This document shows positions 39,877 through 45,643 of a stretch of 64,000 nt of DNA, in pieces. The translations under genes were made by a program, and so were the position numbers. Origin of the DNA: Micromonospora radicis (GTDB taxonomy: Bacteria > Actinomycetota > Actinomycetes > Mycobacteriales > Micromonosporaceae); contig NZ_QXEC01000007.1 of the NCBI RefSeq assembly GCF_003583405.1, positions 1-64,000 on the forward strand, given 5' to 3'. Every line of letters starts with the position of its first letter. The first letter of the stretch is position 1. A model generated the notes under the pieces. It saw only the letters and a program-made list of their open reading frames with translations. It had not been told where the DNA came from and did not search any database.

Positions 39877-39960
39877 ATGCGCGAAGAAGCCCCAGGTGAG
39901 GCGGCTCGGGACACGCCCACCGCGGACGTCGCGTCGGCCCACCGGGTGGGGCTGCGATGA
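39877..39960 (+). CDS. 27-residue peptide ORF coupled to the LanB-like gene
   Basis: ATG 39877 lies 5 bases after GAGG. The frame encodes 27 residues: MREEAPGEAARDTPTADV then ASAHRVGLR. Its TGA overlaps the ATG of the LanB-like gene (ATGA at 39957-39960). It has an acidic front (EE) and a Thr/Ser-containing tail. It could be a short RiPP precursor, or simply a leader ORF that couples translation. No known precursor family is recognised and no Cys is present, so a lanthionine product is not possible from it. An upstream in-frame extension cannot be excluded. Confidence 0.45.
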   Translation: MREEAPGEAARDTPTADVASAHRVGLR

Positions 39961-41942
39961 CACGCTGGGATCCGGAGCTGACGGTGCTGAACCGTTCCTG
40001 CCTGCCCGTCGGCGCGCTGGCTCGGCTCCGTTCCGAGCCGCTGGCCCGGTTGCTGGACGAGACGTTGGCGGGCGGCCGGCAGGCCGCCGGGACGCCGGCC
40101 GCGGAGTTCGTCGACGGGCTGCTGGCCGACGAGCGGGTCGACCGGCTTCTCGCGGTTCGGGAACTGGCCGCCGATCCGGTGTTCCGGCTCGCCCTCGACC
40201 GTGGCGATCCGGCCCTCGCCGCCGACCTCGCCGGCTGGCTCGCCGACCCGGACCGGACACCGGGCGAGCGTACGCTCCGTGACCTGGTCCGCCGGCTCAG
40301 CCTTGCCGCGGCGCAGACCGACCCGGGTGGTGTGTTCCCCACCAGCGGCCCGGTGGCCTGGGTGCGGTACGGGCCACCGGTGGTGGCGCACCCCGGGCCG
40401 CGACGCACCGGCGACGACGTCGCCGAGTACCACGACCGCCGGGTCCGGCTGCTGGCCGGCGCACGCCGGTCGGTCGGCAGCGCACCGGGTGGCTCCGGCG
40501 CGACCCGGATCAGCGCGCCGACCGTCCGCACCATCCGCGACCGCAGGCCACCCCCGCCACCGCTGGCCACCTGCGGTACCCGCTGGTGGGCGCCAGTGGC
40601 GGCCGACCTCGACGCGCTCCGCGGCTGGCTCGCGCCGTTCGCGCCGACGCTGCCGGCGCGGCTGATCCTCACCGAACTGTTCGGCGCGCGGATCCGCGCC
40701 CGCGGCCCGCTGCCCGTGCCGGAGTTCTACCGCGAGTACCAGCGGATCGCCGGCGACGCCGCGGAACTGGCCGACTGGTCGGACCCGACGCTCTACCGCA
40801 GTACCCGGGACAGCGTGTGGCCGTCGGTGCGGCAACTGGGACAGGTGGTGGACAGCGCCCTCGCCGCGTTGTCCCCACACCCGGCGGCGGAGCATGCCGC
40901 CGGGACACCGGCGTCGACAGCGGGGGTGGGCGGGGAGGCTGCCCCCGCTGTCGACGCCCCGGTGGGTACGGGCGTCTGCGTCGAGGTGGGCGTGCTGCGG
41001 GCCACCACCGCCCGATATCCCGACTGGGTACCCCCGCTGCGGTCGCTCTGCGCCGGTCTGCAGATCACCCACACGCCCAGCGGCTACCTGCAGGCCGTGG
41101 TGAACGCCCTGCACCCCGGGTTCGGTGCGATGCGGGCCCGGTCGGACCGATTGGCCGGCGTCCGGCGGACGATCGGCGTGCCGGACCCGTCGGCGGGTGG
41201 GCGCCAGGTGGGCGGCCGGGGCCGGTGGCTCGGCGTACCGGTGTCCGGGGAACCGCCGCTGGTGCTGGCCGACACCGCCCGGCTGCCCGTCGCCGACCTG
41301 GACGTGCACCTGGACGACCGGTCGGGCCTGCTGGCGCTGCGCTCCCGCAGCCGCCGACAGCCGGTACGCGTGGTGCACACCGGACTGCTGACCGGGTCCC
41401 GGCTTCCTCCGCTGTCGCGGCTGCTCGCCGTGTTGTCCGGTGAGACGCCGCCGGGTTCGCCGCTCGGCCGGGCACCGGAGGTCGCCGAGCACCCGCACCG
41501 CTGGCCCCGGCTGACCGTCGGCCAGCTGGTCCTCGGGCGGGCCCGGGTCTCGTTCCCCGCCGACCAGGTTCCCGTCGCCAGGCCGGGCGAGCGCGACGGC
41601 GGTTACCTGCTGCGGTTGGCGCGGTGGCGAGCGACGCACGGCATCCCCCGGCGGTGCTTCGTCGCGCTGTCGCGACGAAGCACCGGGTCCGCCACCCGCC
41701 GCTGCGGGCACGGTGGGGCCGGCTCGTTCTACCTGGACTTCGACAGTTGGCTGCTGGTGCAGGACTTCGTCGCCGCGGTGCGCCGGCCGGACACCGTCGC
41801 GGTGGTCTTCGAGGAGGCCTTGCCGGATCCGCTCGGACACGGCGTCGACCTGGCCGACCACGTGACCGAACTGTTGCTCGACGTCGCCGCCGACGAGCCG
41901 TCCTGGTCGGTGGCGTCCGGACGGCTGCCCGCGCGGCGGTGA
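39957..41942 (+). CDS. LanB-like lantibiotic dehydratase, glutamylation domain only
   Basis: A 661-residue protein aligning by eye with the N-terminal LanB domain, which uses aminoacyl-tRNA to acylate peptide Ser/Thr. Landmarks: VFRLALDRGDPALAADLAGWL, then a GVFPTSGPVAWVRYG block equivalent to the usual GFFGPVGWA. Next are LPARLILTELFGARIRARGPLPVPEFYREY and LPVADLDVHLDDRSGLLALRSRS. The end is WRATHGIPRRCFVAL, SFYLDFDSWLLV, VVFEEALP. The C-terminal SpaB_C elimination domain (about 280 residues) is absent and no separate gene for it is nearby. So it may be a PEARL-like aminoacyl ligase, a split LanB, or a degenerate enzyme. The usual KND before the GFFGP block is replaced by QTD. Confidence 0.78.
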   Translation: MTRWDPELTVLNRSCLPVGALARLRSEPLARLLDETLAGGRQAAGTPAAEFVDGLLADERVDRLLAVRELAADPVFRLALDRGDPALAADLAGWLADPDRTPGERTLRDLVRRLSLAAAQTDPGGVFPTSGPVAWVRYGPPVVAHPGPRRTGDDVAEYHDRRVRLLAGARRSVGSAPGGSGATRISAPTVRTIRDRRPPPPPLATCGTRWWAPVAADLDALRGWLAPFAPTLPARLILTELFGARIRARGPLPVPEFYREYQRIAGDAAELADWSDPTLYRSTRDSVWPSVRQLGQVVDSALAALSPHPAAEHAAGTPASTAGVGGEAAPAVDAPVGTGVCVEVGVLRATTARYPDWVPPLRSLCAGLQITHTPSGYLQAVVNALHPGFGAMRARSDRLAGVRRTIGVPDPSAGGRQVGGRGRWLGVPVSGEPPLVLADTARLPVADLDVHLDDRSGLLALRSRSRRQPVRVVHTGLLTGSRLPPLSRLLAVLSGETPPGSPLGRAPEVAEHPHRWPRLTVGQLVLGRARVSFPADQVPVARPGERDGGYLLRLARWRATHGIPRRCFVALSRRSTGSATRRCGHGGAGSFYLDFDSWLLVQDFVAAVRRPDTVAVVFEEALPDPLGHGVDLADHVTELLLDVAADEPSWSVASGRLPARR

Positions 41943-42179: not shown

Positions 42180-42349
42180 CACGCCGCGGCCGCCCGAAGC
42201 GTCCGGGTCGGCACCCGACGCGCCGCGCCAGGCGGGGGTGGCGTGGCACCCCGGTGAGGGAGGTGGCTCACAACCGGTACCGGGGTGGCGGGTGGAGCGC
42301 CCCGTCCGGGATACGGTGTCGGCGGCGCTGGTTCGCCCGGCCGAGCATC

Positions 42350-42520
42350 GGCCGGGCGTCGTAAGAGGGAACCCGGTGTGACTCCGGGACTGCCCCGCAG
42401 CGGTGAGTGGGAACGACCGCCGTCAACCGAGCACTGGACCGCGAGGTCCGGGAAGCGACGGCCAGTAGGAGACCGGTGAAGGCCGGTCGCGCCCGCGAGT
42501 CCGAAGACCTGCCCGCGCCG
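42350..42520 (+). ncRNA. Cobalamin (adenosylcobalamin) riboswitch
   Basis: A plus-strand region with the conserved B12 aptamer blocks in order. AGAGGGAACCCGGTG is at about 42364-42378, then CTGCCCCGCAGCGGTGAG (B12 box core region), GCACTGG, GGGAAGCGACGGCCAGTAGGAG, GCGAGTCCGAAGACCTGCC. A GCGCACAC / GTGTGCGC hairpin follows at about 42520-42540. GCCCGCGC at 42511 can pair with CGCGCGGGC at 42550, giving a plausible expression platform. The next gene, 42648, encodes an acyl-CoA thioesterase, not a known B12-regulated function. Confidence 0.92.
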
Positions 42521-42647
42521 CGCACACGCGGTGTGTGCGCTGCCGTCGACCGCGCGGGCGGGTCGTACGGGTGACGCGCCGTTGGTGCGCGTCCTCGACG
42601 TGCGCGCCGGTGGGTTCGACGGTGTGCTTCCCGAGGACGGATGAGCC

Positions 42648-43160
42648 ATGTACGACACCAGCACCCTCACCGGCCGACCCCCGTCGGCGTCACACCTGAC
42701 CCTGTCGCAGATCATGGACCAGCACCACACCAACCTGATGGGCACGGTCCACGGCGGCCGGATCCTGAACCTGATCGACTCAGTGGCCGGGGTGGTCGCC
42801 GCCCGGCACTCCGACGGGCCGGCGGTCACCGCCGCCATCGACGAGACGGCCTTCCTGCGGGCGGTGCGCGTCGGTGACGTGGTCCACGTCGACGCCCGGA
42901 TCACCTGGGCGGGACGCAGCTCGATGGAGGTCGCCGTCAAGGTCACCGCCGACCGGTGGGACCGGGCGGTGCCGCCGACCGACGTGGCCACCGCCCATCT
43001 GGTGATGGTCGCCGTCGACGACGACGGCCAACCCCGACCGGTGCCGCCGCTGCTGCCCGAGACCGACGGCGACCGGCGCCGCTACCGGGAGGCGCAGATC
43101 CGCCGCGAGCATCGGCTCGCCCTGCGCCAGGCGTTGCTCGACGGCGCCGAGGACGGCTGA
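42648..43160 (+). CDS. Hotdog-fold acyl-CoA thioesterase
   Basis: A 170-residue thioesterase of the YciA/BACH type. Conserved parts are MDQHHTNLMGTVHGGRILNLIDSVAGVVAARH (about residues 24-55, with the catalytic-helix Asp), AAIDETAFLRAVRVGDVVHVDARITWAGRSSMEVAVKV, and VATAHLVMVAVDDDG. It hydrolyses acyl-CoA to free acid and CoA. ATG 42648 sits about 130 bases downstream of a cobalamin riboswitch and has GAGGACGGATGAG before it. If the riboswitch controls it, the gene would be off when cobalamin is plentiful. Confidence 0.88.
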   Translation: MYDTSTLTGRPPSASHLTLSQIMDQHHTNLMGTVHGGRILNLIDSVAGVVAARHSDGPAVTAAIDETAFLRAVRVGDVVHVDARITWAGRSSMEVAVKVTADRWDRAVPPTDVATAHLVMVAVDDDGQPRPVPPLLPETDGDRRRYREAQIRREHRLALRQALLDGAEDG

Positions 43161-43252: not shown

Positions 43253-45514
43253 TCAGCCCACCGGGGCGGGGAACCTCTCCCAGACCCGGTGCTGGGCCAT
43301 CAACTGCTGCACGCCGACGAAGACGTCGGCGGCGGTGTCGCCGGTGACGACACCCGGCGTTCCGCTGACCCCGGCCCGGTCCAGCACGGCGACACCGGTG
43401 TCCCAGGCGCCGATCGGCTTTGCGTGCCGCCAACATTCCTGCACCAGCAGCAGCACCCGCGGGTCGACCGTGGTGGCGCCCGGGGCGTCGGCCCTGGCGT
43501 CGCGGGCCGGCAGCGCGTCCGGCGCGGGGACCGGCGCCGTGGCGAGCAGGACCGCGTCCAGTTCGACCGACCGGCCGGTGGCGAAGGTGCGCTGCACCGG
43601 CAGGTCGCCCAGCCGGCCGCCGTGCGGGGCGATCAGCAACGGCACCATGTCGGCGGCGAACACGGCCCGGCGTACCTGGCCGACGGTGTCGAGGTCGGCG
43701 TCGGAATCCACCACGATGCCGACCAGCCGGCCGTCGCCCGGCCACTGCCGGCCGACCTGGGACAGCGCCGGGCTGGGCGTGACCTCCGCCAACGGCAGGG
43801 TCGGTTCCGGTGCGGGCAGTCCCAGGCCGGTGGCGACCTCGGCGCAGAGCACCGGGTCGATGTTGGCCAGGCACCGCAGCTGACGTTCCTTGATCGCCTG
43901 GTGGTAGCACTTGCCCAGTTCGAAGGTGTAGGCGCGGATGATGTGCTCCCGCTCGACCGGGGACATGCTCAGCCAGAACAGCCGGGCCTGACTGAAGTGG
44001 TCGTCGAAGGAGGCCGGGTTCTGCCGGATCTTCGGCGCCGCGGTCACCTGCACCGGTACGTCGACGAACGGGTGGTCGTCGTCGCCGGCCGGGAAGGGGT
44101 TGCCGCCGTCGAGCGAGTTCGGCCGGTACGGTGCCACTCCGGCGTGCACCGCGTGCTGGTGGAAGCCGTCGCGCAGCATGTCGTTGACCGGGGCGTGCGG
44201 CCGGTTGATCGGGATCTGCGAGAAGTTCGGTCCGCCCAGCCGGGTCAACTGCGTGTCGACGTACGAGAAGAGCCGGCCCTGCAACAGCGGGTCGTTGGTG
44301 ACGTCGATGCCCGGCGGCAGGTGACCGACGTGGAAGGCGACCTGCTCGGTCTCGGCGAAGAAGTTCGACGGGGTGCGGTTGAGGACCAACCGGCCGACCG
44401 GCTGTACCGGCGCCAGCTCCTCCGGCACGATCTTCGTCGGGTCGAGCAGGTCGATGCCGGCGAACGTCTCCTCCGGGGTGTCGGGCAACACCTGGATGCC
44501 GAGTTCCCACTCGGGGAACGCGCCGGCCTCGATGGCGTCGTAGAGGTCACGGCGGTGGAAGTCCGGGTCGATGCCGCCGAGCAGCTGCGCCTCCTCCCAG
44601 ACCAGGGAGTGCACGCCCAGCTTGGGCTTCCAGTGGAACTTCGCCAGCGCCGTCTCCCCCGCCGCGTTGACCAGGCGGAAGGTGTGGACGCCGAAGCCCT
44701 CCATGGTCCGGTACGAGCGCGGGATGCCCCGGTCCGACATGTTCCACATGGTGTGGTGTTGCGCCTCGGTGTGCAGCGAGACGAAGTCCCAGAACGTGTC
44801 GTGGGCGCTCTGGGCCTGCGGGATCTCCCGATCCGGGTGCGGCTTGGCCGCGTGGATGATGTCGGGGAACTTGATGGCGTCCTGGATGAAGAAGACCGGC
44901 ATGTTGTTGGCGACCAGGTCGAAGGTGCCCTCGTCGGTGTAGAACTTGGTGGCGAAGCCACGGGTGTCCCGGACCGTGTCGGCCGATCCCCGCGAGCCGA
45001 GCACGGTGGAGAAGCGGACGAAGACCTCCGTCTCGCGGCCCTTGGCCAGGAAGGCGGCCCGGGTGACGTTCTCGGCGGTGCCGTACCCGGTGAACACGCC
45101 GTGCGCGCCGGCTCCCCGGGCGTGCACGACCCGCTCGGGGATGCGTTCGTGGTCGAAGTGGGTGATCTTCTCGCGCAGGTGGTGGTCCTGGAGCAGGACC
45201 GGTCCGCGTGGGCCCGCCTTCAGTGCGTGGTCGGTGTCGCGCAGCCGGGCGCCCTGCGAGGTGGTGAGGAAGTCACCCTGTTGCCCCGTCGCCGTGGCCG
45301 GCGCCCCGGTGCGGGCGCCGGTCGGCGTACGGGTCTGTGGTGATCCCTGCTCCGGTTTGGGTGGCAGTGGACCGTGCGGGGTGGTCGGTTCCCCGACCGC
45401 CGGTGGGGCGCTGCCCGGCGCGCCGGGCACGTCGGGGCTGAGCACGTCGGCCACCTTCTCCGCCGCCGACTCCACCACGTCCTTGACCGCCTTGGCGGGA
45501 TTGCGGGTTTCCAT
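43253..45514 (-). CDS. katE: Large-subunit (HPII/KatE-type) catalase
   Basis: A 753-residue heme catalase. An N-terminal Pro/Thr-rich extension (1-85) precedes the catalase core. The catalytic His is in RVVHARGAGAHGVF and the Asn in DLVANNMPVFF. The proximal heme Tyr is in RLFSYVDTQLTRLG. A C-terminal flavodoxin/GATase-like domain starts near 600 at GRLVGIVVDSDADLDTVGQVRRAV. This domain and the length define clade II catalases. ATG 45514 follows AGGAGG by 10 bases; upstream in-frame codons to 45619 were not used. Detoxifies hydrogen peroxide, usually in stationary phase. Confidence 0.93.
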   Translation of the reverse strand: METRNPAKAVKDVVESAAEKVADVLSPDVPGAPGSAPPAVGEPTTPHGPLPPKPEQGSPQTRTPTGARTGAPATATGQQGDFLTTSQGARLRDTDHALKAGPRGPVLLQDHHLREKITHFDHERIPERVVHARGAGAHGVFTGYGTAENVTRAAFLAKGRETEVFVRFSTVLGSRGSADTVRDTRGFATKFYTDEGTFDLVANNMPVFFIQDAIKFPDIIHAAKPHPDREIPQAQSAHDTFWDFVSLHTEAQHHTMWNMSDRGIPRSYRTMEGFGVHTFRLVNAAGETALAKFHWKPKLGVHSLVWEEAQLLGGIDPDFHRRDLYDAIEAGAFPEWELGIQVLPDTPEETFAGIDLLDPTKIVPEELAPVQPVGRLVLNRTPSNFFAETEQVAFHVGHLPPGIDVTNDPLLQGRLFSYVDTQLTRLGGPNFSQIPINRPHAPVNDMLRDGFHQHAVHAGVAPYRPNSLDGGNPFPAGDDDHPFVDVPVQVTAAPKIRQNPASFDDHFSQARLFWLSMSPVEREHIIRAYTFELGKCYHQAIKERQLRCLANIDPVLCAEVATGLGLPAPEPTLPLAEVTPSPALSQVGRQWPGDGRLVGIVVDSDADLDTVGQVRRAVFAADMVPLLIAPHGGRLGDLPVQRTFATGRSVELDAVLLATAPVPAPDALPARDARADAPGATTVDPRVLLLVQECWRHAKPIGAWDTGVAVLDRAGVSGTPGVVTGDTAADVFVGVQQLMAQHRVWERFPAPVG

Positions 45515-45643
45515 CGCTGCCGGTACCTCCTGGAACACGACGACCAGATGCCAGGGCGATACCCGGGCCACCACCGGCAAAACGGGTCGAACATCACTGA
45601 CCGGGGCGATACTCGCCATCCCGCTCCGCCCGCTCGGGCGGGG

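Follow-up and report, generated by a model that had tools for sequence, protein, structure and literature searches.

A complete cobalamin riboswitch stands directly in front of a hotdog acyl-CoA thioesterase gene in Micromonospora radicis, within the 64,000-nt stretch of DNA analysed here (the window). The regulatory link between the two is well supported, and the thioesterase, for which we use the working name THIO, can be placed with high confidence in a B12-shortage regulon. We assign a probability of roughly 0.55 to the whole model, in which an OFF riboswitch would release THIO under B12 shortage and the enzyme would hydrolyse mutase-linked acyl-CoAs.

Riboswitch, leader helices and thioesterase gene

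At gathering thresholds, cmscan gave RF00174 (Cobalamin) as the sole Rfam match in the window, with a score well above the gathering threshold of 31.5 bits and the model covered in full. The features of the locus were as follows.

42312-42530, + strand: complete cobalamin riboswitch aptamer (RF00174; cmscan 86.9 bits, E 4.6e-20, model 1-189)
42568-42597, + strand: helix H-A, proposed anti-sequestor (alignment A1)
42590-42639, + strand: helix H-B, proposed Shine-Dalgarno sequestor (alignment A1, single-sequence folds)
42633-42637, + strand: Shine-Dalgarno-like GAGGA, 10 nt 5′ of the ATG (direct sequence read)
42648-43160, + strand: THIO, hotdog acyl-CoA thioesterase with ATG start, 170 aa, ACOT7/YciA-like (PF03061 68 bits; solved relatives; conserved residues)

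The ATG of THIO lay 117 nt behind the aptamer end. Because the next gene, a catalase (43253-45619, − strand), is convergent, no same-strand gene other than THIO directly follows the riboswitch. The 661-aa ORF upstream of the riboswitch (39957-41942, + strand) had no Pfam or NCBIfam match. Between 41940 and 43260, a consensus scan detected neither a sigma-70-like promoter nor an intrinsic-terminator-like site, a result of little power since about none is expected by chance in this high-GC stretch. The earlier note on this DNA had described a complete B12 aptamer before an acyl-CoA thioesterase, and both identifications were borne out (RF00174, 86.9 bits over model 1-189; PF03061, 68 bits). Its start at 42350 hit the right locus but missed the first 38 aptamer bases, as the aptamer begins at 42312.

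Alignment A1 comprised 33 of 34 distinct leaders (L052 was omitted), and the window's genus supplied 31 of the 33; six more distant records (L053, L054, L057, L058, L121, and L126) stood outside it. The Shine-Dalgarno-like stretch was well conserved in A1. In H-A, a conserved CGGG.GA segment and the following CRCGCC pair with GGCGYG and the anti-Shine-Dalgarno segment TCCTCG. Across the 33 leaders, 90.1% of the H-A cells were paired, compared with 36-57% with slid partners. The H-A covariation score (0.128 against 0.096 in shuffles) was equalled by 1 of 500 shuffles and came mainly from one base pair (columns 10 and 36), while two of five measures, namely how many pairs vary and how many pair types occur, were not above shuffles. 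In H-B, CGTCCTCG (42590-42597) pairs with CGAGGACG (42632-42639), so that TCCTCG meets the Shine-Dalgarno CGAGGA. This helix was also present in single-sequence folds of leader parts, and 87.4% of its cells in the 33 leaders were paired, against 44-56% with slid partners. Its covariation in the same leaders did not exceed that of shuffles, 89 of 500 scoring as high. Both helices use TCCTCG and are therefore mutually exclusive. A pattern search did not find the platform element in the more distant leaders. The pairing elements that had been proposed as a possible expression platform are thus present as two exclusive helices above slid controls, but H-B covariation did not rise above shuffles. 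The helices would fit translational control, with the Shine-Dalgarno masked when B12 is bound, and we infer a switching role for H-A.

The thioesterase family and conservation of the pairing

THIO matched the 4HBT family PF03061 with 68 bits (cut-off 20.6), and all its Pfam matches were to thioesterase families. Its nearest solved relatives were ACOT7 and bacterial acyl-CoA hydrolases. N29, H35-G36-G37, and D44 were more than 97% conserved both in the THIO clade (40 rows) and in the sister group (28 rows). N29 and D44 are presumed to be the counterparts of the Asn and Asp of ACOT7, which we take to be its catalytic residues. Positions near D44 differed, with S45 and V49 in the THIO clade against D and A in the sister group. 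ACOT7/YciA-type enzymes are broad in substrate. THIO shares with them the 4HBT domain, the HGG motif, and the conserved N and D. Unlike them, it missed the YciA equivalog cut-off (NCBIfam NF007970, 50.4 versus 162 bits) and falls in a separate clade that is for the most part B12-controlled and has S45 and V49. NCBIfam gave five matches, all below cut-off, three to thioesterase models and two to 3-aminobutyryl-CoA ammonia-lyase. The ammonia-lyase identity was rejected (31.3 bits versus a cut-off of 160). With thioesterase families only in Pfam and sub-cut-off matches only in NCBIfam, THIO falls outside the classical B12-independent isozyme class.

In a protein search covering the window's genome plus 60 relatives, 10 of 36 congeners had a THIO orthologue (92-95% identical), and many congeners had a second thioesterase roughly 59% identical to THIO. 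All 10 orthologue loci had a cobalamin riboswitch directly upstream, and two loci of other homologues scanned beside them had none. The riboswitch link was found at 19 of 20 further THIO loci. Among 250 sampled family genomes, 47 carried THIO at the chosen limit of at least 64% identity. For each genome 60 riboswitch candidates were scored, and THIO loci without a match were rescanned by cmscan. THIO had its own riboswitch in 34 of the 47 genomes, and a link either direct or through a metE or nrdAB operon was present in 38. The layout riboswitch-nrdA-nrdB-THIO occurred in two genomes (G212 and G142) and riboswitch-metE-THIO in two Asanoa species (G110 and G077). No riboswitch or B12-operon link was found at THIO in nine of the 47 (G265, G291, G276, G274, G292, G105, G063, G124, and G089); the G274 locus was checked after the family scan by core-motif patterns only, none of which was found. 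Five of the 34 direct riboswitches scored low (G184, G141, G066, G085, and G246; 46.8-64.1 bits), and such cases, e.g., G184 (46.8 bits) and G141 (51.2 bits), may be degraded.

Beyond the 250-genome sample, locus L125 had its own riboswitch, and L120 and L144 had none. Micromonospora costi showed the order nrdAB-THIO, with the layout known from nrdA onward. Among Pseudonocardiaceae, THIO of Lentzea had its own riboswitch, and Amycolatopsis kentuckyensis showed riboswitch-metE-THIO with a 4-nt overlap. In Amycolatopsis antarctica (L128), no riboswitch match was present in the 2.5 kb upstream of THIO, and aceA-aceB (isocitrate lyase, malate synthase A) lay directly 5′ of the gene. The search for RF00174 followed by thioesterases in other actinomycetes, which the earlier note had suggested, thus returned direct pairing in 34 of 47 THIO genomes. 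Its companion question, whether relatives hold a classical B12 gene at this position, had a divided answer: metE intervenes in Asanoa and A. kentuckyensis and nrdAB in G212 and G142, and direct pairing prevails elsewhere. Given these metE layouts of Asanoa and A. kentuckyensis, descent of the present layout from a metE-THIO operon is possible.

Two further arrangements were observed. G215 had two THIO copies (L187 and L188), each with its own riboswitch. At L010:2521-2641, L011:2463-2651, and L047:2541-2750, the THIO riboswitch was preceded by a second cobalamin riboswitch match (33-64 bits), which ran on the other strand and faced away from THIO.

The sister thioesterase of the same genomes served as control. 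One such sister (L094 in G000) was 59% identical to THIO, and the two are alike in family, length, and conserved residues; unlike THIO, the sister had no riboswitch at any sister-clade locus scanned. Upstream stretches of sister, Streptomyces, and other homologues gave a riboswitch at 0 of 41 loci (L016-L034, L081-L094, L136-L138, L140, L141, L146, and L171-L173; 42 stretches, L137 and L171 being one locus). About 1.5 kb or more was scanned at these loci, and less at some near contig ends, e.g., L025. The tree was built from 79 of 109 distinct sequences after near-copies were dropped, and its bootstrap was not settled. It separated the sister clade, which includes Streptomyces (28 rows, support 99/96; 26 scanned without a match, two unlabelled), from the main THIO clade (36 rows, support 100/99), where 26 rows were linked to a riboswitch, nine unlinked, and one undetermined. 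Asanoa, Lentzea, and Amycolatopsis fell outside the main THIO clade, and the order among them was weakly resolved.

B12 regulon and gene neighbourhood

The window's genome had at least four RF00174 matches among the best 150 of 445 candidates scored. Besides THIO, the targets were as follows.

C23: metE (PF01717, PF08267)
C34: nrdAB (PF02867, PF00268)
C14: btuFCD-like transporter (short partial RF00174 match; PF01497 for the binding protein)

THIO was the only unusual target among the RF00174 matches listed for this genome. Genes of relatives were called with our own codon-usage caller, which missed some (e.g., THIO in L139), and were named by eye or by BLAST to our own labels, except for the profile-checked ones. 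Clusters named by eye contained nrdAB, metE, cbtBA-like, THIO, LysE, and NiCoT-like genes at L061, and btuFCD-like genes, THIO, metE, and nrdAB at L062 and L063. Proximity to metE and mutAB was counted in 49 THIO genomes (44 of the 47 and five from the congener search). metE was absent from 26 of these; of the 23 that had it, 12 carried it no more than 21 kb from THIO. By chance, metE would be this close in about 0.6% of cases per 7-Mb genome, the genomes compared being related. aceB-aceA was present in the THIO-bearing clusters of G245 and, by eye, G251.

Several other neighbours were seen. In THIO-bearing congeners, aceA-aceB occurred in B12-riboswitch clusters at L071:14785-16794 and L182:9044-12292 (L182 names by eye). 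THIO islands held MerR-type proteins with a riboswitch match on the same strand (L061:12508-13985, L062:5769-6665, and L063:11804-13407). The L062 protein resembled CarH weakly, its 21 bits falling far short of the cut-off, and an FhuF-like Fe-S protein followed the MerR-type gene in L061 and L063 (PF11575 for the L061 one). Genes for transcobalamin/intrinsic-factor-like secreted proteins and ECF-type transporters (by eye) stood next to THIO at L072:10003-18001, L077:8668-16001, L059, and L067. A LysE-like sequence lay within 200 nt downstream of THIO at 24 of 54 loci; at L010, L012, and L038 the codon-usage caller gave no intact gene for it. LysE proteins are a family of amino-acid exporters. 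The neighbour could serve the export of a product, but acid export is no clear fit, as the family exports amino acids.

MM_CoA_mutase was present in all 250 family genomes (250/250), and its presence or absence was therefore discarded as a substrate test. The window's genome had two mutase large subunits, on contigs other than that of THIO; by their signatures, the C56 subunit (Y/R) is presumably of methylmalonyl-CoA type and the C11 subunit (F/Q) of isobutyryl-CoA type. A mutAB-type mutase was found in eight of the 49 THIO genomes. In three of the eight it was no more than 16 kb from THIO: in G013 the two are divergent neighbours, and the distance is about 9-11 kb in G251 and about 15 kb in G234. 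At L182:8173-9021 (− strand) and L184:4682-5596 (+ strand), a cobalamin riboswitch precedes a methyltransferase-like ORF (by eye), an unusual B12-riboswitch target, which is convergent with and runs slightly into meaB of a mutAB-meaB operon. The position of these riboswitches downstream of meaB had suggested antisense regulation of the mutase operon, a reading rejected because each precedes such an ORF. Many congeners, but not the window's genome, had another group of mutases, about 670 aa long and scoring roughly 425-447 bits against PF01642; as a guess, these are perhaps ethylmalonyl-CoA mutase.

Proposed role, competing explanations and meaning

The riboswitch family and the co-targets indicate that the riboswitch is very probably an OFF switch. 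With ample coenzyme B12, it would repress THIO translation; under shortage, the anti-sequestor H-A would form, the Shine-Dalgarno would be free, and THIO would be produced alongside MetE and NrdAB, the isozymes that need no B12. Adenosylcobalamin-dependent methylmalonyl-CoA and isobutyryl-CoA mutases would then lack their cofactor, and acyl-CoAs would build up. Since an enzyme made together with MetE and NrdAB needs a CoA ester that rises under B12 shortage, the mutase substrates are the natural candidates. THIO would most likely hydrolyse methylmalonyl-CoA, propionyl-CoA, and isobutyryl-CoA (guessed substrates), by which CoA would be freed and the acid would leave the cell. We put the odds at about even that acyl-CoAs behind stalled B12-dependent mutases are the substrate class. 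The mutAB genes near THIO in three of eight mutAB-type genomes weakly favour methylmalonyl-CoA or propionyl-CoA; equally, such proximity is the exception and weighs against a mutase link. The proposal that CoA-ester hydrolysis is a B12-shortage response, already made from the letters alone, gains support from the conserved pairing, from THIO in metE and nrdAB operons, and from the textbook co-targets.

The aceAB neighbours suggest a broader shift of acyl-CoA use, instead or in addition. THIO could be a B12-shortage gene tuning acetyl-, butyryl-, or fatty-acyl-CoA pools in a glyoxylate-shunt switch, or a gene of general CoA protection, rather than one clearing mutase substrates. Its place directly after aceA-aceB in A. 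antarctica and the aceB-aceA genes in the G245 and G251 clusters (the latter by eye) agree with this, as do the broad substrate range of ACOT7/YciA-type enzymes and the ACOT7-like nearest solved relatives. However, mutAB neighbours THIO too, and the aceAB link concerns three loci only, with no systematic count, so we consider this explanation rather unlikely. A role of THIO in cobalamin uptake or salvage itself, not in the consequences of B12 loss, is improbable. THIO does abut ECF-type transporter and transcobalamin-like genes (by eye) at L059, L067, L072, L073, and L077, but it equally abuts metE and nrdAB, and the one transcobalamin-like protein tested had no Pfam match. Moreover, we know of no salvage step that needs a CoA thioesterase.

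A reversed switch, in which B12 turns THIO on, is very improbable. The direction is not certain from sequence, but riboswitches of the same genome precede metE and nrdAB. In addition, the part of PMC4991794 consulted (citing Borovok 2006) places the Streptomyces nrdABS operon under a B12 riboswitch and suggests that NrdAB serves when AdoCbl is not available. Deletion of the native target, with THIO behind a leftover riboswitch by accident, was the other proposal of the earlier note and is hardly credible today: loss of metE from the Asanoa and A. kentuckyensis layout could give the present one, but the direct pairing is retained in 34 of 47 genomes and the platform helices in 33 leaders, and even within the metE and nrdAB operons THIO remains downstream of a riboswitch.

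The preferred model, an OFF riboswitch with THIO acting on mutase-linked acyl-CoAs, can be set beside known RF00174 members before B12-independent isozymes (metE, Streptomyces nrdABS). As in those, a complete aptamer of the same family lies in the gene leader, and THIO shares its genome, and in relatives often its cluster, with metE and nrdAB. Unlike those, the target is a CoA thioesterase and not an isozyme, transporter, or biosynthetic enzyme. In the parts of the large survey PMC3766115 consulted, cobalamin regulons form four classes (biosynthesis, B12 transport, cobalt transport, and isozymes), and a thioesterase is absent from that main text, whose actinobacteria are only Corynebacteriaceae and Mycobacteriaceae. 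Among the open-licence papers searched, in the parts available, no B12 riboswitch-thioesterase link was found, which does not show its absence from print. The locus would be an RF00174 member with a new class of target, and a conserved thioesterase target would add a fifth class of cobalamin regulon, that of handling the metabolic damage of B12 loss.

The recurrence of the pairing in many Micromonospora and their soil-dwelling relatives points to THIO being made when vitamin B12 is short. An anonymous thioesterase clade thereby gains a condition and a likely role, and THIO offers a handle on how Micromonospora and its relatives manage when their methylmalonyl-CoA and isobutyryl-CoA mutases stall. 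The pools of these mutases also feed polyketide synthesis. More tentatively, THIO may act as a riboswitch-controlled safety valve. On this view, the response of actinomycetes to B12 shortage would go beyond B12-free replacement enzymes and include a thioesterase dedicated to discarding methylmalonyl-CoA and related esters trapped behind B12-dependent mutases, in some cases along with an exporter. If true, this would be a programmed bacterial form of methylmalonic aciduria.
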